Shown: positions 26,491 to 40,054 of the stretch, in pieces
How positions within the stretch are numbered: position 1 is the stretch's first letter
Layout: every line of letters begins with the position of its first letter
The notes under the pieces: generated by a model
What the model saw: only the letters and a program-made list of their open reading frames with translations
Database searches by the model: none
What the model was told of the DNA's origin: nothing
Source: an uncultured Bacteroidales bacterium
GTDB taxonomy: Bacteria > Bacteroidota > Bacteroidia > Bacteroidales > Paludibacteraceae
Direction: 5' to 3'
NCBI GenBank assembly: GCA_902798015.1
Contig: CADBVL010000025.1
Location: forward strand, 1-40,054
DNA: 40,054 nucleotides
Position numbers and translations under genes: made by a program

Positions 26491-27837
26491 TTATTCACCT
26501 ATGTATGCGCGAACACAGCGGAAGCCGATGTACGGACGGCTCTCATACTGGTACTCATAGGTACGAACGCCGCACTGCATGAAATAACTGATATCTTTCC
26601 AGCTACCTCCCTTAACGACCTTACGTTTCAAGATATCCGGATCTGCTTTACGAGCCATATAACTATAGTCCGGATTCAAGTCATGGATATGCGTATTAGC
26701 AGCACTCTGGTAAGCCGAGTTCGTCCATTCCGATACGTTACCCGCCATGTCGAACAAACCGAAATCATTCGGACGGAACTGAGCTACCTTCATCGTCGTA
26801 GTACCTGTATCATCGTTGTACGCACCGCGGTATGGCTTAAAGTTGGCGAAGAAACAGCCCTTGCCATCGCGAGCATAGTTGCTTCCCCACGGATACATCG
26901 CTAATTTACGGCCACCGCGCGCAGCATACTCCCACTGAGCCTCCGTCGGCAGACGGTATGCGTTTGCCTCGGTAGTAGAATACATGTTAAAGAGTTTCGA
27001 GCGCCAGTTGCAGAAAGCATGTGCTTGCTCCCACGTTACACCGACAACCGGATACTCTGCGTAGCCCGGATGCTTGAAATACATGTGCAACAACGGATCG
27101 TTGTACGAGAACTGGAAGTCACGCGCCCACACCAATGTATCAGGATAGATACTTATAATCTTTTCGGTCAGCAGGTCTTTCGGTTCACGCAACGGACGGA
27201 TAATTGTAGAATCCTTGATTTCGTTGTTAGCGTTTACCCAGAAAGTATCCACGCGTGCCGTTGCTCCCGGAGGATAAGTACTGGTAGCAACGTCAAATTT
27301 ATTGCGTTGCGGAAGCGCCTCGTCCATATTTACCCAATTGTAACGATAGTGCAGATTGTTCGTGTTGAACTTACCATCAGAGTAGTACATTGATGACAAT
27401 GCATCAACCACATCTTCCTCCTTGCTGTTCCATGGCACTTTCTTACGCCAATTGATCCGGAAATTGGTTTCATCAAAATCCTCGTCTTTCGGCTGGATAG
27501 CATAATCCGTCATGCCGGCCGCAATCAAGTTGGTCAAAGCGATTGAGTCACGCACCCAGTTCACAAACTGATGGTACTCGCTGTTAGTAATTTCGGTCTC
27601 GTCCATCCAGAACGCGTCCACCGTCACCATTACCACGTTGTCCGGTTGCTCAAACACTGCAGATTGCGTGTTTGCACCCATCATGAAGGAACCCTTCTTA
27701 ATGAACAACATTCCATAAGGATTTGCCTCCTTAAAGTTGGTACTCTTGCCTACTCCGACTAATTCGCCGGCCGGCTTGTTGCAACTCGCCAATGCAATCG
27801 CAAATACGATCAATGGCAAAATCTTAGTTACTTTCAT
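26491..27837 (-). CDS. gldK: type IX secretion system lipoprotein GldK/PorK
   Basis: A 448-residue outer-membrane lipoprotein. The signal ends in LASC, with C19 lipidated. It has a formylglycine-generating-enzyme-like (FGE-sulfatase) fold: YGMLFIKKGSFMMGANTQ, ETEITNSEYHQFVNW, YRLPTEAQWEYAARGG, NVSEWTNSAYQ, VVKGGSWKD and a final IGFRCVRAYIGE. In T9SS it forms the periplasmic ring with GldN. It starts 2 bases after porP. Confidence 0.96.
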   Translation of the reverse strand: MKVTKILPLIVFAIALASCNKPAGELVGVGKSTNFKEANPYGMLFIKKGSFMMGANTQSAVFEQPDNVVMVTVDAFWMDETEITNSEYHQFVNWVRDSIALTNLIAAGMTDYAIQPKDEDFDETNFRINWRKKVPWNSKEEDVVDALSSMYYSDGKFNTNNLHYRYNWVNMDEALPQRNKFDVATSTYPPGATARVDTFWVNANNEIKDSTIIRPLREPKDLLTEKIISIYPDTLVWARDFQFSYNDPLLHMYFKHPGYAEYPVVGVTWEQAHAFCNWRSKLFNMYSTTEANAYRLPTEAQWEYAARGGRKLAMYPWGSNYARDGKGCFFANFKPYRGAYNDDTGTTTMKVAQFRPNDFGLFDMAGNVSEWTNSAYQSAANTHIHDLNPDYSYMARKADPDILKRKVVKGGSWKDISYFMQCGVRTYEYQYESRPYIGFRCVRAYIGE

Positions 27838-27839
27838 AC

Positions 27840-28790
27840 TTACAAGTATCGAATTGATTTATATTTATTCGTTCTTTTCGGCTTCAGGATATCAAATCCA
27901 TAGGCCAGATATAGTTCATGACTTCCGTAGCTTTCCAATAGCAATTTGTTAGTCGGCAACTCACATGTGTATCCCAACTGCAAACCGTTAATAATATCTA
28001 TGCCTAGCAATATATTCACACTTCCGGCAATGCGATATCCGAGTCCCCAGCGATAACGGTCTTTATAGTCGCACATCAGCGTAAGGTTGATATCCCAACT
28101 GACAAAATCGCTCATCACCATCATGCTCGGCGTCAACATCCAATCCCGATGGTCCTTCAGCCGGAAATGGTATCCACCCGTGATATACATCGTTCCAACC
28201 AAAGTCACTGATGTGTACTCATCCCAAGTGACTGTTGGACGGGTCAAATGACTACAACTCGCACCCACCCACCATGTCGGAGTGCTGTAATATAATCCAA
28301 AACCCATGTCAAATGTCATTCCCGATTTGCTGCCAGTCGGCACCGACTCATCCGTCGCTTCGTGGTAATCGTCCCCCATCTTGCTGAGATTAATGGAATC
28401 CCCTTTGAACCCTACGTTCACGAATCCCAAATCGATTCCGATGCTCAAATAGCCGTTTCCCAACCTCTGACGATACGCGTACTGAGCATACAGTGATTGA
28501 TTGGTGAACAATCCGTAGCGGTCGTTAAGGAAACGCACCCCCGCGCCGTGACGCGTCTTGCCTATTACAAATGGCGAGCAGAAAGTGAACCAAGTACTCA
28601 TCGGTGCGTTGGTTATGTCCACATACTGCATGCGGTGCATTCCAACCACTCTCATCAAATCGCCCTCTCCCGCCGCTGCGGGATTATAGGCAGTCGGCAT
28701 AAACATATATTGTCCCATCTGCGGATCGAACTGCGCACTCGCAGTCACGACAGCCATAAGCGCAAGCAGAAGGCTAATACTCTTCCTCAT
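27840..28790 (-). CDS. porP: PorP/SprF family type IX secretion outer-membrane protein
   Basis: A 316-residue beta-barrel protein with a signal peptide (MRKSISLLLALMAVVTASAQ) followed by FDPQMGQYMFMPTAYNPAAA, the signature start of the PorP/SprF family. Alternating strands and a terminal KSIRYL follow. It links the T9SS ring or cargo to the outer membrane. The frame is open to 28892, but the ATG at 28790 gives the clean signal peptide. It overlaps the DUF2795 gene by 17 bases. Confidence 0.93.
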   Translation of the reverse strand: MRKSISLLLALMAVVTASAQFDPQMGQYMFMPTAYNPAAAGEGDLMRVVGMHRMQYVDITNAPMSTWFTFCSPFVIGKTRHGAGVRFLNDRYGLFTNQSLYAQYAYRQRLGNGYLSIGIDLGFVNVGFKGDSINLSKMGDDYHEATDESVPTGSKSGMTFDMGFGLYYSTPTWWVGASCSHLTRPTVTWDEYTSVTLVGTMYITGGYHFRLKDHRDWMLTPSMMVMSDFVSWDINLTLMCDYKDRYRWGLGYRIAGSVNILLGIDIINGLQLGYTCELPTNKLLLESYGSHELYLAYGFDILKPKRTNKYKSIRYL

Positions 28791-29001
28791 CGAAGAAGAA
28801 ATCCTCATCCTGTGTAGGATAATCCGGCCATATATCCAAGATGCTCTCATACTGTTCATCATCCTCGTCCTCCAGCTCGTGCAAATTCTCAATTACCTCC
28901 GCAGGAGCGCCAATGCGATTGGCATAATCAAGCAATTCTTCTTTCGTTGCTGGCCATGGAGCATCCTCTAATTTCGAAGCCAATTCAAGCGTCCAATACA
29001 T
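28774..29001 (-). CDS. DUF2795 small acidic protein
   Basis: A 75-residue protein, MYWTLELASKLEDAPWPATK onward, with EELLDYANRIGAPAEVIENL and a strongly acidic tail (DEDFFFDEEEY). This is the Bacteroidota DUF2795 form. The function is unknown. It is the first gene of the T9SS run, just downstream of the promoter at 29059-29090, and its end overlaps porP, which suggests translational coupling. Confidence 0.88.
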   Translation of the reverse strand: MYWTLELASKLEDAPWPATKEELLDYANRIGAPAEVIENLHELEDEDDEQYESILDIWPDYPTQDEDFFFDEEEY

Positions 29002-31856: not shown

Positions 31857-34800
31857 TTAATTATCAAAGTATCCTAATTGCGAAATGGCGGTCAGCATCC
31901 GATTCACGTAAGCGCTGTCAGGTATGGACCAGTGGAAGCCCAGACGGAGGAGGACAGCAGACGTGTAACGGTTGTTTCGCTCAATCGTGACTGCCTTTTG
32001 CCCGTGGGTCATATCCTGATATGCCAAGAGAGCGGACATGAGGTTTGCTTTCTTGGGGTCTTGACTTCCTTCGAGGATTGCTTGCTGGAACTCGTCTTCC
32101 TCCACGTAGCGGATGGACCTACCTATCTTCTCAAAGCCCGCAAGGATATCGCCCAAGAGGTCGGTATGGTTGTTGAAGGGTTGGAAGACGTTACACTCCT
32201 TCGGTGTGGAGGCGAGCAACACGACAGCTTTCGCGGTCTCGTTCACCGGTGAGAACTCTGCCGGCGAGTCGTATTCATCTATCGGACAGCAGCCAAGCGT
32301 GGAGAAGACTTTGAGTCGTCCCATGTAGCTGTTTGTCTGGAAGTTCGCTTGGAACTCACCGTCGTAGCTACGCGCAGCGAGGTTACCCACACGCATGATC
32401 TTAGCGTTCAATCCATGACGCGCTACCGCTTCGAGGATGACACGTTCGGCGAGGAACTTCGACCGCATATAGCGGTTATCGAGGAACTGGCCGAAGTAGA
32501 GGACGCGTTCCGAGAGTTCAGGAACCGCCTTGCCGTCACCACGCTCTATCCATATCTCTCCGACGGAAGTTGTGGAGATATGTATGAGTCGCGCACCGGT
32601 CTTGAGACAGAACTCCACGCAACGCTCCGCGCCACCGATGTTCACCTGCTCGATGTCATCGGTCTTGGAGAAGTGCTTCACGTTGGCTGCACAGTTAAAT
32701 ACTGTCTGAATACTGATATCTGATAACTGATTACTGAAATCATTTGTCACATCGCCGTTGACGACAAAGAGGCGGGAACCGAAAAGTTCATCAAAACGTC
32801 GGTCGAAATAGTAGAAGAGCAGGTTACGCAGACGTCGTTGTGCATCTTGTTGGTCTTTTCCGCGAACGAGACAGGTGATGGTCTTGGCATCCGAGTCGAT
32901 GAGTTCGCGCAGCACATGAATACCGAGATATCCGGTAGCACCGGTAAGCAGCACATTGCCTAACTCCTGACGCTCGCCGCGGAGGAAGGTATTGAGATTA
33001 TTGCGCTGGAGGATGGCATCGATGCCTGTATAATCGAAGGCTGCCTCTTCGGCTTCGTCTGCACTATTATCGGACGTTGACAAGTCGCCGGACAGGAACT
33101 GCGACAAGAGACGCGGCGTCGGATGGGTGAAGATATCGCCGTAGGCGACATGCTTGCCGGCTTTGTCCGCTTCGATGATGACGCGGGTGACCATGAGGGA
33201 CGTACCGCCGAGTTCAAAGAAGTTATCCGTGGCACCTATCTTGTCCTGGTTGAGGATAGACGCAAAGATGTCGCAGAAGAGTTTCTCGTTGTCGTTAGCC
33301 GGTGCCACGTAGTCACGGTCGGTATCCGTCAACTGCGGAGCAGGCAGTGCCCGTTTGTTCACTTTCTGGTTCTGGTTCAGCGGAATGACGTCGATCTGCA
33401 TGGTCGAAGCCGGTACCATGTACGGCGGCTTGCGATCGCGGATGAAGGCATTGAGTGCTTGTATATCAATCTTGCTGTCGCTGACGATATACGCGGCGAT
33501 GAACTTCCCTCCGGTGGGGTAATCAAAGGCCTGTACGGTAGCATCGTTAATACCGGGGTACTCTCGGATGACCGCCTCTACTTCTTTGAGTTCGATACGG
33601 AAACCGCGGATCTTCACCTGACCGTCCTGACGTCCCACAAACTGGATATTGCCGTCTGCGAGGTAGCGTACGACGTCACCGGTGCGGTAACAGCGAAGAC
33701 CATTCCAATCGATATAGGTCTCGGCGGTCTTGTCGGGACGGTTGAGGTAACCACGGCTGACCTGCGGACCGGAGACGAGCAGTTCACCTGTTGCTCCCAC
33801 GGGCACACGATGCAAGTCCTTATCGACGATGAAGAGTCGGAAGTTATCCAGCGGTTTGCCGATAGGGATATTCTTCTCCTGCTCGTGTATCGGATAGGTG
33901 GTCGTGAATATCGTACACTCGGTCGGACCGTAGGCATTATGCAGTAGATAATTAGCCGGCGGTGCGATGGTCGCGAGTTTCTCTCCTCCTACAGACAAGT
34001 GCTTGAGGGAGTGGTTGTCGCAGTTCTGCGCGAACTGATAGCCCACCTGGGTCGTCATGAACGAATGGGTGATGCCTTCGGCCTCGAAGTAATGATTCAG
34101 ATCCGGCAGATTCAGACGGATGTCCTCGCCGATAATATAGACCGCTGCACCACACGTGAGCGCCGGATACATATCCATCATGTTGGCATCAAAACCGTAG
34201 GAAGCATAAGCCGCCACTTTGTCTCCGGCATGGAGATCGTAATAACGGTGATACCAATGACAGAACGCCACGAGGTTGCGATGCTCGAGTTGGCAGCCTT
34301 TCGGCACGCCGGTGGAGCCGGAAGTATAGAGGAGAATGAATAAGTCCGAGGGGGAAGGAGATTCGTGATTACGTAATTTCGTAATTACGGGATTCGAAAG
34401 ATCCTTGGTCAGCAGAACCGGGCCCTCATATTCGTTGACGATGGGACGGAGGTCGGGATCGGCGATGAGGAGGGACGCGTTGGCATCCTTCATCATGAAG
34501 TTCAGTCGCTCTGCCGGATAAGAGGGGTCAAGCGGTTGGTACGCACAACCGGCTTTGAGGGCAGCCAACGAAGCGACTACCATCCATTCGGAACGGTTGA
34601 TGAGTATCGAAACAACTTTCTCTTTCGTGTCGTTGCCGATGACCTCTATGATCCGTGCAGCGATGGCGTCCGTACGCTCATCGACCTCTTTGTAGGTCAG
34701 GCGAACGTCGTGATACACGACAGCGAGGTTATCCGGTGTCTCGGCTGCTTGCTTACGGAAGAGTGAGACGATGGTCTGGGTGTTATCATAAGGCACCTCG

Positions 34801-37727
34801 ATCCGGTTGAACGAGTCGAGCACCGATGTCTGCGCTTCATTGAGGAGCGAGATAGCACGCAGAGGAGCGCTGGTATTCGCCGCAAAAGCCTGCACGGCAT
34901 TTGCCACCGACTGCGCGAGGTTGGTGATCAGCGCTTCGCTGTACCAGCCGTTGTCGAACTCGACGGCTATAGACGGCACGCCGTCCATCGGCATGATATA
35001 GAACGCTATCTTGAATTTCGGCACGTTCTGCTCCATGGTCTCATCCGCGAAGACGGGTTTGCCGAAGACGGAGTAGTTGCTCAGCACGCCCATCTGGTAC
35101 GCGAACATGATCTCTGCCTTGAGGTCGTAGTCTGCTGCGATACGTGCAAACGGATAATCCTCGTGCGCGAGCGTTTGCTCGAAGGACTGCGCGTTCTCGC
35201 GGACGAACTCCTCAACCGTCTGGTTCGCTATCTTTGTGGTGAGGGCGAGAGTGTTAACGAACATTCCCATGGTGTTGTTCACCCGCAGGTTGCTTCGTCC
35301 GTTGGAGATGGTGGTGATGCACACTTCATCCGTTCCAGCGAAACGTGCGAGCGAATAATAGACTGCACTCAGCAGCACCGCTGCCGGCGTCACGCCTAAT
35401 TGGGCCGCATATTTCTCTGCTGTAGGCATATCGAACGGAACGCACACGCGTCCGTTCTCGCCTTGGGGGATAGCATTGGTGAGGTCAGGTTGGATCTCGG
35501 TGACACTCTCTATACCGGTGAGACGCTCGGCGAAGAAGTCTTTTGCCGCCTTGAAGGATTCTCCTTCCTGAGCGGCTTTCTGCTCTGCCACAAACTGCGG
35601 ATAAGAGCACATCTCGGGTTCGATCTCCTTGCCTTCTAACAGGTCGCATATCTCGTGGATGAAGAGGTCATAGGACGCGCCGTCGCAAACGAGGTGGTGG
35701 ATGTCGCTCAAGAGATAGAGGTGCTGCTCCGTGCGCACGATGGCGAAGCGGAAGAGCAGGTCTTTCTGCAGATTGAACGGTCGTACGAACTCATGCTTGA
35801 AGGCGTCCATCTGTGCCTCATCGAGTGCTTTCTCGGGCACATCAATATTTGCCTCGTTCATCATCTTCTCGTCAATCGTCTGGATGACATCCGCTTCCTG
35901 GGTAGCAAAATGCACAAAGAGTTCGGAGTGGTTGAGCACCGCCTTGCGTACCGCTTGACGCAACGCCTCCGTCTCTACCTCCAAGGGCATCTGAATGCAG
36001 ATGGGCACATTATAGAGCGTCGAGGTCGGATTCTTCATGCACTCGAAATAGACACCGAGTTGGGCGAAGGAGAGGGGGGCGGTCAAGTTTTTCTCGGGAT
36101 TACGTGATTCCGTAATTACGGTATCCCGAGGACCACCTAACATCGCAGCGAGTATCTCATTTTCAATGGCCTGCAACGTGATGCCTTTGGTCATCTGTTT
36201 GGCATCGAGTTGGACACCGAAACGCTTGTATATCTGCGTCGCTAATTTGATGGCAGCGATGGAGGAGAGCCCCATATAACGCAGGTCGGTCGTGATGCCG
36301 AACTCCTCCATATTGACGATCTTCGCAATGATGTCATGCAACTCCTGCTCGAGGACATTGAGCGGAGCCGCAGCTACAACCTCCTCTACTTCTGGCTTGG
36401 GTGCTTCGGGCTTAGGCAGGGCGCGTTTATCGACTTTCTGGTTCGGGTTGAGCGGGATAGCGTCAATCTGCATCGTCACAGCAGGCACCATGTAGGGCGG
36501 TTTGCTGTCGCCGATGAAGGCATTGAGTTCGTCGATGTTGATCTTCTCGTCGCTCACGATGTAGGCGGCGATGAACTTACCGCCATCCGGGTAGTCGAAA
36601 GCCTGTACGGTAGCATCTTTGATGCCGGGGAACTCGCGGATGATGGCTTCCACCTCTTTGAGTTCGATACGGAATCCGCGGATCTTCACCTGTCCGTCCC
36701 GTCTGCCCACAAACTCAATGTTTCCGTCCTCGCGGTAATGAACGATATCGCCGGTCTTATAGCACCGCAAACCGTTCCATTCCACAAAGACCTCTGCGGT
36801 CTTCTCCGGCTGGTTGAGGTATCCGAGCGACACCTGCGGTCCGGCTACATAGAGCTCGCCGTCCGTGCCGGTCGGTACTTCCTTGCCGTCCTGTCCGACT
36901 ACGATGAGTTGCGTGCCGTTCGTATTGGCTTTGCCGATAGGTATATTGGGTTCGTTTTGCGTCACGAAGAAACTGCTGACATAGACGGTACACTCCGTCG
37001 GGCCATAGCAGTTCATCAACTTATAGGAAGGCGGATCGAGGCTGATGAGTTTCTCGCCGCCCGTTCCGAGCCACTGCAGGCCCGGGATGTCGGGGTAGTT
37101 GAGCACCAGCTGCGTCGCCATCTGGGTCGTCATGAAGCAGTGGGTAATGTGCTCGTCTTGGATATATTGGTTGAGCCCCTCCAGGTCAAAACGGATCTCG
37201 TCGCCCACGATGCAGATAGTAGCACCTGCCATGACGCAACACCACAGGTCCATTTGGAACGCATCAAAACCATAACCGGCATAGGTGGCGTATTTGCTTT
37301 GCGGAGTCAAGCCTATTGCCTGGACATGGAAATCAAGGAAGGCTAAGATATTCGCCTCGCTCAGCATGACACCTTTGGGAACACCGGTCGTACCGGATGT
37401 ATAGAGCAGCACGAAAGCTTCATCACCATCGTACTTGGAGGCATCCTCCCGCATGAATTTCAGTCGCTCTTCGGGATAAGAGCCATCGAGCGGCATAGCG
37501 GTCAAGCCTGCTTTCGCGATGGCGATAGGTGTCAGCACCATCAGTTCATTACGCGGCACGATAAACGATGCTACTTTCTCACCGCAACGGGTGACGTACT
37601 GCGGATCGAGAGTGTCCGACAGACGGTCTGCCTCTTCAAAGGTGATTCGTTTGTCCCCTGCGATGCAGAAGATATCATTCGGACGCTCGGCAACGTGTTT
37701 TTTGAAGTATTCGACTAAGTGTTTCAT
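31857..37727 (-). CDS. dimodular non-ribosomal peptide synthetase with terminal reductase (A-T-C-A-T-R)
   Basis: A 1956-residue cytosolic enzyme. Domains by eye: A1 (1 to ~430; LLYTSGTTGVPKG near 115), carrier T1 (pantetheine serine in YMGLSSIAAIKL near 486), condensation C (HHLVCDGAS near 676), A2 (LLYTSGSTGVPKG near 1131; YGPTEC; RTGD), carrier T2 (FFELGGTSLMVTRVI near 1507) and thioester reductase R (GATGYLG near 1594, catalytic YMRSK near 1752). It should load two amino acids, join them and release a dipeptide aldehyde or alcohol, which may cyclise. A1 lacks a block between FMREDAS and KYDGDEAF that is present in A2. Two near-copies of one repeat encode linkers near A2 and before C, and a third patch lies in R. 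No phosphopantetheinyl transferase is in the window. The gene follows the STAS gene by one base. Confidence 0.93.
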   Translation of the reverse strand: MKHLVEYFKKHVAERPNDIFCIAGDKRITFEEADRLSDTLDPQYVTRCGEKVASFIVPRNELMVLTPIAIAKAGLTAMPLDGSYPEERLKFMREDASKYDGDEAFVLLYTSGTTGVPKGVMLSEANILAFLDFHVQAIGLTPQSKYATYAGYGFDAFQMDLWCCVMAGATICIVGDEIRFDLEGLNQYIQDEHITHCFMTTQMATQLVLNYPDIPGLQWLGTGGEKLISLDPPSYKLMNCYGPTECTVYVSSFFVTQNEPNIPIGKANTNGTQLIVVGQDGKEVPTGTDGELYVAGPQVSLGYLNQPEKTAEVFVEWNGLRCYKTGDIVHYREDGNIEFVGRRDGQVKIRGFRIELKEVEAIIREFPGIKDATVQAFDYPDGGKFIAAYIVSDEKINIDELNAFIGDSKPPYMVPAVTMQIDAIPLNPNQKVDKRALPKPEAPKPEVEEVVAAAPLNVLEQELHDIIAKIVNMEEFGITTDLRYMGLSSIAAIKLATQIYKRFGVQLDAKQMTKGITLQAIENEILAAMLGGPRDTVITESRNPEKNLTAPLSFAQLGVYFECMKNPTSTLYNVPICIQMPLEVETEALRQAVRKAVLNHSELFVHFATQEADVIQTIDEKMMNEANIDVPEKALDEAQMDAFKHEFVRPFNLQKDLLFRFAIVRTEQHLYLLSDIHHLVCDGASYDLFIHEICDLLEGKEIEPEMCSYPQFVAEQKAAQEGESFKAAKDFFAERLTGIESVTEIQPDLTNAIPQGENGRVCVPFDMPTAEKYAAQLGVTPAAVLLSAVYYSLARFAGTDEVCITTISNGRSNLRVNNTMGMFVNTLALTTKIANQTVEEFVRENAQSFEQTLAHEDYPFARIAADYDLKAEIMFAYQMGVLSNYSVFGKPVFADETMEQNVPKFKIAFYIMPMDGVPSIAVEFDNGWYSEALITNLAQSVANAVQAFAANTSAPLRAISLLNEAQTSVLDSFNRIEVPYDNTQTIVSLFRKQAAETPDNLAVVYHDVRLTYKEVDERTDAIAARIIEVIGNDTKEKVVSILINRSEWMVVASLAALKAGCAYQPLDPSYPAERLNFMMKDANASLLIADPDLRPIVNEYEGPVLLTKDLSNPVITKLRNHESPSPSDLFILLYTSGSTGVPKGCQLEHRNLVAFCHWYHRYYDLHAGDKVAAYASYGFDANMMDMYPALTCGAAVYIIGEDIRLNLPDLNHYFEAEGITHSFMTTQVGYQFAQNCDNHSLKHLSVGGEKLATIAPPANYLLHNAYGPTECTIFTTTYPIHEQEKNIPIGKPLDNFRLFIVDKDLHRVPVGATGELLVSGPQVSRGYLNRPDKTAETYIDWNGLRCYRTGDVVRYLADGNIQFVGRQDGQVKIRGFRIELKEVEAVIREYPGINDATVQAFDYPTGGKFIAAYIVSDSKIDIQALNAFIRDRKPPYMVPASTMQIDVIPLNQNQKVNKRALPAPQLTDTDRDYVAPANDNEKLFCDIFASILNQDKIGATDNFFELGGTSLMVTRVIIEADKAGKHVAYGDIFTHPTPRLLSQFLSGDLSTSDNSADEAEEAAFDYTGIDAILQRNNLNTFLRGERQELGNVLLTGATGYLGIHVLRELIDSDAKTITCLVRGKDQQDAQRRLRNLLFYYFDRRFDELFGSRLFVVNGDVTNDFSNQLSDISIQTVFNCAANVKHFSKTDDIEQVNIGGAERCVEFCLKTGARLIHISTTSVGEIWIERGDGKAVPELSERVLYFGQFLDNRYMRSKFLAERVILEAVARHGLNAKIMRVGNLAARSYDGEFQANFQTNSYMGRLKVFSTLGCCPIDEYDSPAEFSPVNETAKAVVLLASTPKECNVFQPFNNHTDLLGDILAGFEKIGRSIRYVEEDEFQQAILEGSQDPKKANLMSALLAYQDMTHGQKAVTIERNNRYTSAVLLRLGFHWSIPDSAYVNRMLTAISQLGYFDN
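32706..32746. repeat. in-frame repeat patch in the reductase domain
   Basis: Units of CAGTAATCAGTTATCAGATATCAG type on the minus strand encode NDFSNQLSDISIQTVFN, ahead of the FNCAANV strand of the reductase. Confidence 0.6.
34360..34396. repeat. NRPS linker repeat, copy 1 (in A2)
   Basis: GATTACGTAATTTCGTAATT continues into ACGGGATTCG. On the minus strand it encodes NPVITKLRNHES, just before the A2 LLYTSGSTG motif. It matches the copy at 36092-36130 at about 23 of 26 core positions and in the same reading frame. Confidence 0.75.
36092..36130. repeat. NRPS linker repeat, copy 2 (before C domain)
   Basis: GATTACGTGATTCCGTAATT continues into ACGGTATCCCG, with outer CTCGGGAT / ATCCCGAG inverted ends and an inner palindrome CCGTAATTACGG. 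It encodes TVITESRNPEK in the T1-C linker, in the same frame as copy 1. Confidence 0.75.
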
Positions 37728-37728
37728 G

Positions 37729-38031
37729 TTATTCTATTGTAAAAAGGTTCTGAAAACCGCTCATGCGGAAGATGTCGCTCACGTCCTCGTTGAGGTGGGT
37801 GATGTGAATCGAACCGCCTTTAGCTTCTGATTCTCGTTTGAGTTGCATGAAGAACCGCAAGCCGGCTGAAGAGATGTACTCGAGTTGCTCACAATCAATC
37901 TCCAGCGCTTTGTCGGCAAGTGCCAACACCTGGTTCAAGTCCTCTACTTGGGTTGTAGTAACTGTCGTGTCAAGTTCGCCGATAAGGCAAACACGCGTCT
38001 CTTGGTCATTCGGAATAATGCTGATTTTCAT
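37729..38031 (-). CDS. STAS-domain anti-anti-sigma factor
   Basis: A 100-residue single STAS domain: VCLIGELDTTVTTTQVEDL, then LEIDCEQLEYISSAGLRFFM, with S55 at the phosphorylation position of SpoIIAA/RsbV. In partner switching, the unphosphorylated form frees a target from an RsbW-type kinase. The gene just upstream encodes both the phosphatase and the kinase-like ATPase, and the synthetase follows one base downstream, so regulation of peptide synthesis or of a linked process is likely but not shown. Confidence 0.9.
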   Translation of the reverse strand: MKISIIPNDQETRVCLIGELDTTVTTTQVEDLNQVLALADKALEIDCEQLEYISSAGLRFFMQLKRESEAKGGSIHITHLNEDVSDIFRMSGFQNLFTIE

Positions 38032-38038
38032 ATTGTAT

Positions 38039-38088
38039 AAAAGTTTAATGTCGCTGCGCGACGTTTAAGAGTTTAAAAGTTTAATGAG
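38039..38088. repeat. repeat patch (aaaagtttaa type) with a small hairpin
   Basis: AAAGTTTAA units at both ends flank GTCGC-TGC-GCGAC, a perfect 5-base stem, between the phosphatase and STAS genes. The patch also encodes the last residues of the phosphatase (LIKLLNS). Confidence 0.55.
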
Positions 38089-40054
38089 CGTGAGGACGTT
38101 TTTATTGTCGCGCCGCTCGTAGTGCAGTTCATCAACGATTTGTCGGATGAGATGGATTCCCAGACCTCCCACCTGGCGTTCACCGGTTGCTTTCTCATTG
38201 GGCACATGCCCCGTGGGGTCAAAAGCGATTCCGTCATCCGTTAGGGTGAGAATAATTTTCAATGCTTCATTTTTAATTTTTAATTCTATCTCAGAAGCTT
38301 GCGAATAATGAAGAATATTCACGACAGCCTCTTCGGCTGCCACTTCGAGTTTTTTGAGTCCTTTCTTGTCCATGCCGTTGCATAATCCAAAGGTATGGAT
38401 TGCCTTTCGCAAGACAGGCCATTGGTCTGCTTGGCAAGGCACGCGCAGCGTCACAGGTTGGACGGGGCTTGTCTTTCGAATCGTCATGAGGGTGATATCA
38501 TCCGTTGGTTCGGCCTGCCCTATAAAAGCTTTAATAGCGCCGTACATATCCTCCTTCTTCGCTACGATCTCTGACCATCGCTTCATTCCTAACATCTCAC
38601 GGGCGCTGTTCCGCGCTTCGGTCACGCCATCAGTGTAAAGAACGATTTTCTCTCCTTCGCCAATCATGCAGCCTTGCTCCACAAACGAATACCGGCCGTC
38701 ATATCCCAGCGGGATATTCGGTTCAACGGTGAGGGGTGAGGGGTTACCGGTTACGGGGGAGTAGATAAGCGGCGCACAGTGTCCGGCATTGCAGAAGAGC
38801 AGTTCGCCTGTAGGGATACACAGACATCCCACAAAAGCGGTCACGAACGTCAGGGAGGGGTTGTTCTCGCTAAGGACGGTATTGATTTCTTCCATGATCT
38901 GTTTGGGTGAGGTTGCTCTCACACCAGCTGCGCGGAAGAGGTTCACTGCAGCACTCATGAACATAGCGGCCGGAACGCCCTTGCCGCTCACATCTCCGAT
39001 GATGAACCAGAGGACGTCTCCTTCGCGATGGAAGTCAAAGAAGTCGCCTCCTACTTCGCGCATCGGGACAAGGAAGGTATGGAGTTCAATATCTCCGTTC
39101 GCTTGGGCTTTGATCCGTTCCTTGTCGTCTTTCAGGATTCCCATTTGAATATCATGGGCTATCTGCAGTTCGTGCGACACCACCTCTCGCTCCGTCTCCA
39201 AACGGGCGTTCTCTTGTTCATCCCGCGTCATACGACGGATCAACAGGCCCACCACGAGGATACCTAACACGAACACGCCCAAGGGCAACAAGGTGCCCAA
39301 ACGAAGACTATCGATAACATGGCTGCGCGGAACGGCAGTGACCATTCGGATATTTATCGGTTGAAGAGTCTTGCGGGAAACGATCCATGAGCCATCATCC
39401 AATTCTCCATCTTTCGGCGCACCGTCACTGGCGGCAAGGAGGGTCCCGTTGGAACTATAGAGCATACACTCCACCTCCTCGAATGGCCGGAAATGGTCCA
39501 GCATATTGTGTATCCATTTCAAACTGAAATCAATACCTGTGACGCAAATCAGATCGCCCTTCTCGTCCAGCACGTCATTCGAATAGGTATAGATCGGTTC
39601 GTCAAAATCTTCATCTATATACGGGGTGCTCCAATAGCCTGCGTTGTTTTGCACGGCTCCTTTATACCACTCGCGTTCAAAATAATCATGCTCAGCATCC
39701 CCAAAAGGGCAGGAGACTATCGAATCCTTCGTACGATAGGAAGTCAAGCCGAACCACTTCCCTTTTTCCGGATAATAATACGGCGGGAAAACTACATAGC
39801 AGGAATAAAAATTCGGATACCGCTTGATCAGTTCGTCGGTCTTGCTGTACAAATTCTCCGGGTGCGTCAGGTTCCTCTTCACCTCTTCTATCAGCTGAGC
39901 GTTGGCATCCAGCGCGTCGTACAACTCAAAACGCAGTTTCTCTTGCGCAATCTGCATCTCGAGATCCATTTTCTCCTGCAATTGAGACAGCGCCCTGCTA
40001 TAAGACACATATGACTGCACGCCCATGCCTAACAGGAGGAAGAGAGCCGCTAAA
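38065..40054 (-). CDS. membrane sensor SpoIIE/RsbU phosphatase fused to RsbW-like ATPase (partial, 5' end beyond window)
   Basis: At least 662 residues are visible; the frame stays open to the right edge (LAALFLLLLG ahead of the first in-window ATG at 40026), so the true start is outside. From N to C: a membrane helix cut by the edge; an extracytoplasmic sensor domain of Cache type (~30-235, with YFEREWYKGAV and CVTGIDFSL); a second helix (LLPLGVFVLGILVVGLLI); a coiled coil; a PP2C-type SpoIIE domain (VGGDFFDF, GDVSGKGVPAAMFM, DGVTEARN); and a histidine-kinase-like ATPase domain (EEAVVNILHYS, DDGIAFDP, GGLGIHLIRQIVD). It probably senses an outside signal and sets the phosphorylation of the adjacent STAS protein. 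Two repeat patches lie in frame in it. Confidence 0.9.
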   Translation of the reverse strand, partial: LAALFLLLGMGVQSYVSYSRALSQLQEKMDLEMQIAQEKLRFELYDALDANAQLIEEVKRNLTHPENLYSKTDELIKRYPNFYSCYVVFPPYYYPEKGKWFGLTSYRTKDSIVSCPFGDAEHDYFEREWYKGAVQNNAGYWSTPYIDEDFDEPIYTYSNDVLDEKGDLICVTGIDFSLKWIHNMLDHFRPFEEVECMLYSSNGTLLAASDGAPKDGELDDGSWIVSRKTLQPINIRMVTAVPRSHVIDSLRLGTLLPLGVFVLGILVVGLLIRRMTRDEQENARLETEREVVSHELQIAHDIQMGILKDDKERIKAQANGDIELHTFLVPMREVGGDFFDFHREGDVLWFIIGDVSGKGVPAAMFMSAAVNLFRAAGVRATSPKQIMEEINTVLSENNPSLTFVTAFVGCLCIPTGELLFCNAGHCAPLIYSPVTGNPSPLTVEPNIPLGYDGRYSFVEQGCMIGEGEKIVLYTDGVTEARNSAREMLGMKRWSEIVAKKEDMYGAIKAFIGQAEPTDDITLMTIRKTSPVQPVTLRVPCQADQWPVLRKAIHTFGLCNGMDKKGLKKLEVAAEEAVVNILHYSQASEIELKIKNEALKIILTLTDDGIAFDPTGHVPNEKATGERQVGGLGIHLIRQIVDELHYERRDNKNVLTLIKLLNS
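38261..38290. repeat. in-frame repeat patch (ttaaaaattaaaaatgaa type) in the ATPase domain
   Basis: ATTTTTAATTTTTAATT on the plus strand encodes ELKIKNEALK on the minus strand, within a beta strand of the ATPase domain before LTLTDDG. Confidence 0.65.
38728..38760. repeat. in-frame repeat patch (ggtgaggggtgagggg type) in the phosphatase domain
   Basis: GGTGAGG units and two GGTTAC units encode PVTGNPSPLTVEP in a loop of the PP2C domain between HCAPLIYS and NIPLGYD. Confidence 0.65.

Follow-up and report, generated by a model that had tools for sequence, protein, structure and literature searches.

The locus and its genes

This work concerns three adjacent genes in a stretch of DNA from an uncultured Bacteroidales bacterium (GenBank assembly GCA_902798015.1, contig CADBVL010000025.1). 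The stretch, which we call the window, is an entire contig (C25, 40,054 bases) of a draft genome that is 85% complete. The genes encode a membrane sensor with phosphatase and kinase domains, a stand-alone STAS protein, and a reductive nonribosomal peptide synthetase (NRPS) built of adenylation (A), thiolation (T), condensation (C) and reductase (R) domains. The original prediction, made from the DNA and its open reading frames, placed these on one strand with gaps of 33 bases and 1 base, and both the reading frames and Pfam bear this out. Its description of the genes as directly fused was wrong. They are three separate genes, and hidden Markov model (HMM) searches of the open frames found neither STAS nor HATPase fused to the synthetase. 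The spacing of only 1 base suggests that STAS and synthetase share one transcript. The nearest named relatives, among the matches listed, are Prevotella and Prevotellaceae metagenome-assembled genomes (MAGs), and the source bacterium probably lives in the gut or rumen.

Table 1. Features of the sensor, STAS and synthetase genes in window coordinates
Feature	Position	Strand	Details
Membrane sensor, PP2C + HATPase	38065-40053	minus	662 aa, open at contig end
Sensor PDC/Cache (dCache) domain	aa 73-183, ~39505-39837	minus	Pfam MCP-like_PDC_1 2e-16
Sensor SpoIIE PP2C domain	aa 346-526, ~38476-39018	minus	Pfam SpoIIE 5e-39
Sensor RsbW-like HATPase domain	aa 541-658, 38080-38433	minus	Pfam HATPase_c_2 1e-19
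Sensor-STAS gap	38032-38064	minus	33 bases
Stand-alone STAS protein, anti-sigma-antagonist fold	37729-38031	minus	100 aa; Pfam STAS 1e-12; TIGR00377 over cut-off
Predicted phosphoserine S55 of STAS	37867-37869	minus	motif [AS]S[ASK][GA][LIV]R
STAS-synthetase gap	37728	minus	1 base
Reductive bimodular NRPS A1-T1-C-A2-T2-R	31857-37727	minus	1956 aa
NRPS A1	~36408-37727	minus	Pfam AMP-binding
NRPS T1	~36153-36365	minus	Pfam PP-binding
NRPS C	34821-36083	minus	Pfam Condensation
NRPS A2	~33342-34760	minus	Pfam AMP-binding
NRPS T2	33093-33278	minus	Pfam PP-binding
NRPS R	~31860-32948	minus	Pfam NAD_binding_4 reductase

The 5' end of the sensor gene is missing because the contig ends there. What lies past this edge, a point raised by the original prediction, can be seen on another contig of the same genome (C55). 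It holds a sensor 5' end that overlaps the window sensor by 265 bases at 82% DNA identity; we infer from the mismatch that the assembly holds strain variants. On C55 the gene of an SNF symporter, 97% identical to that of the relative L065, precedes the sensor start with a 4-base overlap. Since the sensor start on C55 overlaps the window sensor and has SNF in front, the operon probably runs SNF-sensor-STAS-synthetase. The symporter's role may be uptake of an amino acid used as substrate, or movement of the product. SNF also adjoins the synthetase in L045, L088, L091, L077 and the window clade, a set that includes loci lacking the sensor/STAS pair.

Two features of the canonical Rsb/SpoIIA switch are present in the sensor: a SpoIIE-type PP2C phosphatase and an RsbW-type kinase with N-box and ATP lid. 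The lid motif GGxG is found in 64 of 64 sensor rows, the window's included, and the N-box pattern in 62. All 64 have the PP2C motifs [YF][TS]DG and DD[IMVL]T, and 42 have GDx[SA]GKG. By Pfam, kinase and phosphatase are joined in one protein, as in SypE. The Cache domain finds its closest solved chains in 3lic (1e-8) and 6d8v (1e-5), with PctA a weak match (0.014). The kinase domain is absent from the sensors of three loci, two of which keep STAS (L074, L054) and one of which has lost it (L062). The STAS protein matches SpoIIAA and anti-sigma-B-antagonist chains in sequence, and its serine motif, serine included, is present in 72 of 72 STAS rows. We take S55 to be the phosphorylated serine by analogy with SpoIIAA/RsbV.

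On the synthetase Pfam reports AMP-binding, two AMP-binding_C matches, PP-binding in two stretches, one Condensation domain and NAD_binding_4. Residues H677/H678/D682/G683 of the C domain, carrier serines S489/S1510 and reductase Y1753/K1757 are invariant in 12 aligned synthetases, and the T-R didomain matches PDB 6vtj at 1.5e-90. The best NCBIfam match is AusA (NF047350, an equivalog), but its 1139 bits are below the cut-off of 2500, so the synthetase falls outside that family. The A-T-C-A-T-R order and the reductase Tyr/Lys are those of the gut NRPSs for dipeptide aldehydes and pyrazinones, a family reportedly described by Guo in 2017. By analogy, the predicted product is a dipeptide aldehyde.

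Longer orthologs have an extra condensation domain in front, which the window's clade is without. For counts in this lineage we used the 44 synthetase loci with about 1.6 kb or more upstream; L040, L061 and L064 are among those dropped for being cut closer. Synthetase frames longer than 2,300 aa occur in 23 of the 44, and L076 and L053, the two scanned, each have two Condensation stretches, so the absence of the first domain looks like a derived state. L073 retains only its C-terminal part, and in L045, of the same clade in the T-R tree, the front domain shares just 27-30% identity with its counterpart in the module orthologs that were compared. The A1 domain varies as well. About 40 residues before the LLYTSGTTG motif (window ~37410-37450) are missing in the window, L044, L071, L073, L076 and L041, and present in L046, L048, L051, L053, L054 and L055.

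Conservation of the three genes

A search for conserved co-occurrence, as the original prediction proposed, found STAS directly upstream of the synthetase on the same strand in 42 of the 44 lineage loci, and a PP2C sensor or part of one in 43. A chance neighbourhood is rejected on this count. The two exceptions, L045 and L062, are both in genome G277. STAS-synthetase spacing across the 42 loci varies between an overlap of 14 bases (L083) and a distance of 113 bases (L038), with start codons as called, and the sensor is split over several frames in L068, L069 and L197. Few outside families recur in the flanks of 68 loci (SNF in 11, MATE in 7, every other family in 6 or fewer), so sensor, STAS and synthetase are the conserved unit. 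In some other lineages of the genus and family the order is synthetase-sensor-STAS or synthetase-STAS-sensor (L051, L053, L055, L056).

Counting by genome, 42 of the 300 sampled genomes of the family contain the synthetase, and 37 of these, the window's own included, lie within its genus. STAS proteins in 178 genomes of the genus fall into two classes. The first, the module type, has at least 58% identity (at least 109 bits) and was found at 46 places, spread over 44 genomes; the second is a paralog with at most 44% identity (at most 77 bits, among the matches listed). All 44 genomes with the module-type STAS carry the synthetase: 29 belong to the family sample, 14 of the other 15 matched in a further search, and G354 has it as an N-terminal fragment at a contig end. 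Of the genus genomes in the family sample that have a synthetase, eight lack this STAS. In five of these (G146, G171, G199, G237, G243) a different sensor/STAS pair lies no more than about 6 kb away. G254 carries STAS with a HATPase frame of 134 aa close to the end of a contig, and G270 and G277 lack a complete pair in the vicinity.

As a control we used 79 further loci from the matches listed, a phylogenetically uneven set. STAS and/or a PP2C sensor accompanies the synthetase in 5 (L086, L089, L090, L092, L162), L094 has only a MATE/RsbW protein at the search threshold, and no STAS, PP2C sensor or MATE/RsbW was found among the matches listed for the remaining 73, which come mostly from named non-gut organisms.

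Some other neighbours deserve mention. Arginine-deiminase-like (PF02274) members lie directly downstream of the synthetase at L066:606-1922 and L074:16423-17739, and at L048:7766-9865 a deiminase fused to DUF3089 is directly upstream. Beside the synthetase at L046:13344-14687, L048:17207-18553 and L049:4782-6131 are proteins of 447-449 aa for which Pfam gives no match.

Exchange of the sensor/STAS pair

The 40 module sensors form one clade in the sensor tree (100/99), and the sensors of L044, L046 and L086 are sister to a paralogous pair that we call the core pair (95/94). In the synthetase tree L044 is sister to the module synthetases (100/95). It appears from these trees that the synthetase lineage has been paired with at least two sensor/STAS lineages, having exchanged its pair and mostly kept one. 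A single recruitment of the pair is weakly rejected by the approximately unbiased (AU) test, with p 0.047 for the module and L044/L046/L086 as one clade and 0.017 for the module and L044, for groups chosen after the tree was seen.

Eight close loci are 84-98% identical to the window in STAS, 89-95% in synthetase (L042 being compared over its first 570 residues only), 67-97% in Cache and 63-82% in the kinase domain. L057, which has a swapped pair, is 75% identical in STAS, 94% in synthetase (first 570 residues), 36% in Cache and 55% in kinase. Mean identity across the 40 module loci is 54.8% for the kinase domain and 75.9% for STAS; for the core pair (11 loci) it is 69.3% and 75.3%. The greater divergence of kinase than of STAS in the module is compatible with a further STAS partner.

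The core pair itself is found on contig C63 of the window genome (L214, 1-4714) and in L215-L224. Its neighbours in these 11 loci, where one member of each family was scanned with Pfam, include HD_4 (10/11), tyrosine phosphatase (9/11), APH (7/11) and a RelA_SpoT-domain family of about 350 aa (7/11). It is a partner switch adjoining alarmone-type enzymes.

Sigma factors and stand-alone RsbW

The original prediction noted that no sigma factor is encoded nearby. Among ten whole genomes, one of them that of the window, none has a SigB/F/G-type sigma factor over the cut-off, as against 1 of 14 control genomes. In the same ten genomes PF13581 gives 18 matches over cut-off, every one within a frame of sensor size (662-747 aa). 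A borderline match lies in a frame of 416 aa; apart from it, no clear stand-alone RsbW is found. Two features of the canonical Rsb/SpoIIA switch, the sigma-sequestering stand-alone RsbW and the SigB/F/G-type sigma, are therefore lacking in the ten. Since the usual sigma factor is apparently absent, the switch may act directly on the synthetase or its transporter.

MATE-RsbW fusions

In Clostridia (L089, L090, L092) and in a Methanobrevibacter-labelled MAG (L094, L276), the NRPS has as its neighbour a MATE transporter that carries an RsbW-like domain at its C-terminus. That domain is detected as Pfam HATPase_c_2 in L090 and by our own HMMs in L089, L092, L094 and L276. A model of the L092 protein (pLDDT 80.8), compared as a whole, matches MATE structures. 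Searching 245 genomes of the class of L092 for the RsbW-like domain at 1e-15 or better, and counting the query's own place, we found 15 places in 13 genomes. All are MATE fusions, and five (L092, L259-L262) adjoin an NRPS. In L262 the genes for NRPS, MATE/RsbW, STAS and sensor follow one another in this order on a single strand, spaced by 12, 19 and -4 bases, and Pfam confirms both HATPase domains.

The GGxG lid is present in 0 of 24 MATE/RsbW rows (two of them identical), as against 64 of 64 sensors, and 19 of the 24 retain the N-box Asn. Because the lid is missing though the Asn is mostly kept, the fused domain may serve for docking and not for phosphorylation. At locus L276 of the MAG (G362), NRPS-MATE/RsbW is accompanied on the opposite strand by genes for STAS, HATPase and a PP2C-type protein, the last covered in part. 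This MAG has archaeal TFIIB; Sigma70_r2 had no match over cut-off in it and MCR_alpha no match. A subtype A tannase gene (L276:12231-14138) adjoins its NRPS cluster, which may reflect transfer or misbinning of the contig.

A proposed mechanism and its alternatives

We believe, with somewhat more confidence than doubt, that the pair is a partner switch independent of sigma factors and dedicated to the reductive peptide pathway, which it would control at a level after transcription. The periplasmic Cache domain would bind an extracellular ligand. The ligand would set the balance of PP2C phosphatase against RsbW-like kinase, domains whose motifs are observed, and thus the phosphorylation of STAS Ser55. 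Because kinase and phosphatase share one membrane protein, the STAS protein presumably must carry the message, as in SypE/SypA. Unphosphorylated STAS would then bind and gate a protein of the pathway, the synthetase and/or a co-encoded transporter. Candidate transporters are the SNF symporter upstream in the window lineage and, in Clostridia and the archaeal MAG, the MATE protein with its own RsbW-like domain. The synthetase would make a dipeptide aldehyde and release it reductively; since the first condensation domain is lost here, the amine of the product is probably free.

The original prediction proposed that the synthetase itself, or its target, may be switched through the STAS protein rather than through a sigma factor. 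The dedicated linkage, the motifs, the lack of SigB/F/G and of a clear stand-alone RsbW in the ten genomes, and the related genes of the archaeal MAG support this in part; the emphasis on the synthetase fares less well, since the exporter fusion points at least equally to a transporter. As the direct target, the synthetase is rather unlikely and a transporter slightly more so, and the data do not separate the two. A broader proposal, which we put forward tentatively and without leaning towards it, is that a cassette shared by two bacterial phyla and one or more archaeal MAGs represents sigma-detached partner switching acting directly on secondary metabolism, with unphosphorylated STAS docking on an NRPS or exporter. 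The lid-less RsbW-like domain fused to MATE would then be the visible docking domain, and an extracellular ligand would gate small-molecule output by binding.

Two other explanations must be considered. STAS/RsbW/PP2C systems are classically transcriptional, so expression of the operon could be controlled through an extracytoplasmic function (ECF) sigma, a HATPase-less anti-sigma or a DNA-binding protein. The window genome has five Sigma70_r2 matches over cut-off, and Leahy et al. (2010, PMC2812497) proposed regulation of NRPS expression for a methanogen. The genus also has stand-alone RsbW-type proteins, as shown by the 134-aa HATPase frame beside STAS at L049:180-931, in a genome (G254) outside the ten. 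Yet none of the ten genomes has a match over cut-off to the expected sigma or a clear stand-alone RsbW, the window encodes no diffusible RsbW for sigma sequestration because kinase and phosphatase are in one membrane protein, and related genes adjoin NRPSs in an archaeal MAG that is without Sigma70_r2 over cut-off. We judge a transcriptional output unlikely. It could also be argued that the pair is a co-transcribed passenger that regulates something unrelated, such as stress or the envelope, and stays linked through operon inertia or shared transfer. After all, pairs can be exchanged against the synthetase, some related synthetases have none, and the core pair sits with the RelA/SpoT-type family in 7 of 11 loci and not with an NRPS. 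This seems quite improbable to us, as the linkage persists through exchange of the pair, changes of gene order and a change of phylum while the outer flanks vary, and among the 178 genomes searched none with the module-type STAS was found to lack the synthetase.

Several results do weigh against a dedicated, directly acting switch. The original prediction held that synthetases without the regulators in close relatives would refute it, and there are a few such cases: the stretch examined has no pair in L045 (G277), L048 (G270), L085, L087 and L091, and L088 has none upstream. Since such synthetases exist, the pair is probably not needed for synthetase activity. G277 has in addition a synthetase copy (L062) with a kinase-less sensor and no STAS, and in G301 the pair and the synthetase are on separate contigs. 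The swapped pairs of L057 and L044 show that the system does not strictly need a STAS-synthetase interface that is finely matched. The partial distance correlation is higher for STAS-kinase (0.49) than for STAS-synthetase (0.29). As a co-evolution test of the synthetase as partner, the distance correlations did not single it out. The MATE fusions have their own difficulties. The window's operon is without any MATE or docking domain, and the fused domain of L089 is found by our HMMs, with no HATPase reported by Pfam. Of the 15 MATE/RsbW places in the class sample, ten (L263-L272) have no NRPS in the stretch, and for nine of the ten there are frames for PP2C, STAS or a separate HATPase close by. 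Three of the five NRPS-linked places (L259-L261) lack STAS and PP2C over the roughly 6.9-11 kb seen beyond the MATE gene, with the upstream side out of view.

Relation to known systems

The closest precedent is the NRPS cluster around mru0068 of Methanobrevibacter ruminantium M1, where partner-switching genes adjoin an NRPS (PMC2812497). As in the window, a bimodular synthetase stands beside serine phosphatases and an anti-sigma-factor antagonist, here with a MatE exporter. Its terminal domain is called a reductase in the legend of Fig. S8 and a thioesterase in the text. The cluster differs in belonging to an archaeon, in having separate phosphatase genes and the first condensation domain, and in that control of expression is assumed; the accessible text notes no fusion.

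Other systems share parts of the design. In SiaABCD of Pseudomonas aeruginosa unphosphorylated SiaC binds and activates SiaD, and there, as in HsbA-HsbD and BgrV-BgrR, phosphorylation of a STAS-like protein decides the control of an enzyme, by direct binding for SiaC-SiaD (PMC8457831). SiaABCD differs in having a diguanylate cyclase as effector, a DUF1987 protein as SiaC, and two proteins for kinase (SiaB) and phosphatase (SiaA). In Vibrio fischeri one kinase and phosphatase protein, SypE, acts on a lone STAS protein, SypA, whose target is unknown (PMC8256260, PMC12826045). Unlike our sensor, SypE has a receiver domain instead of a membrane Cache sensor, and its output is biofilm. The response regulator TciR of Vogesella has an RsbW-like domain and affects indigoidine production (PMC12826045). 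The aureusimine synthetase AusA shares the A-T-C-A-T-R architecture, and the accessible text on AusA and the gut pyrazinone family mentions no partner-switch regulator (PMC11257994, PMC10794557, PMC12153313). The same sources state that gut reductive NRPSs make protease-inhibiting peptide aldehydes and that amino-acid supply affects AusA in Staphylococcus.

What is already known, then, is the NRPS association in one archaeon (PMC2812497) and STAS-type control of diguanylate cyclases (PMC8457831). Neither the Bacteroidota operon, with its spread and the exchange of pairs, nor the MATE-RsbW fusion was found in the accessible parts of the open-licence full-text literature, subscription papers being outside the search. 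Apart from the case of Vogesella TciR, only Leahy et al. were found there to describe such an association. As to a dedicated way of switching on gut reductive NRPSs, that literature offers only what Leahy et al. suggested for the methanogen and the effect of amino-acid supply on AusA.

If the switch does act directly on the synthetase or an exporter, NRPSs or transporters would join the few enzyme outputs of STAS switches, and the sensor ligand or STAS Ser55 would be a handle for switching on silent clusters. The MATE-RsbW fusion makes the idea of a direct output testable with two purified domains. Apart from this system, the window has type IX secretion genes of the GldK and PorP/SprF families at 26491-28892.

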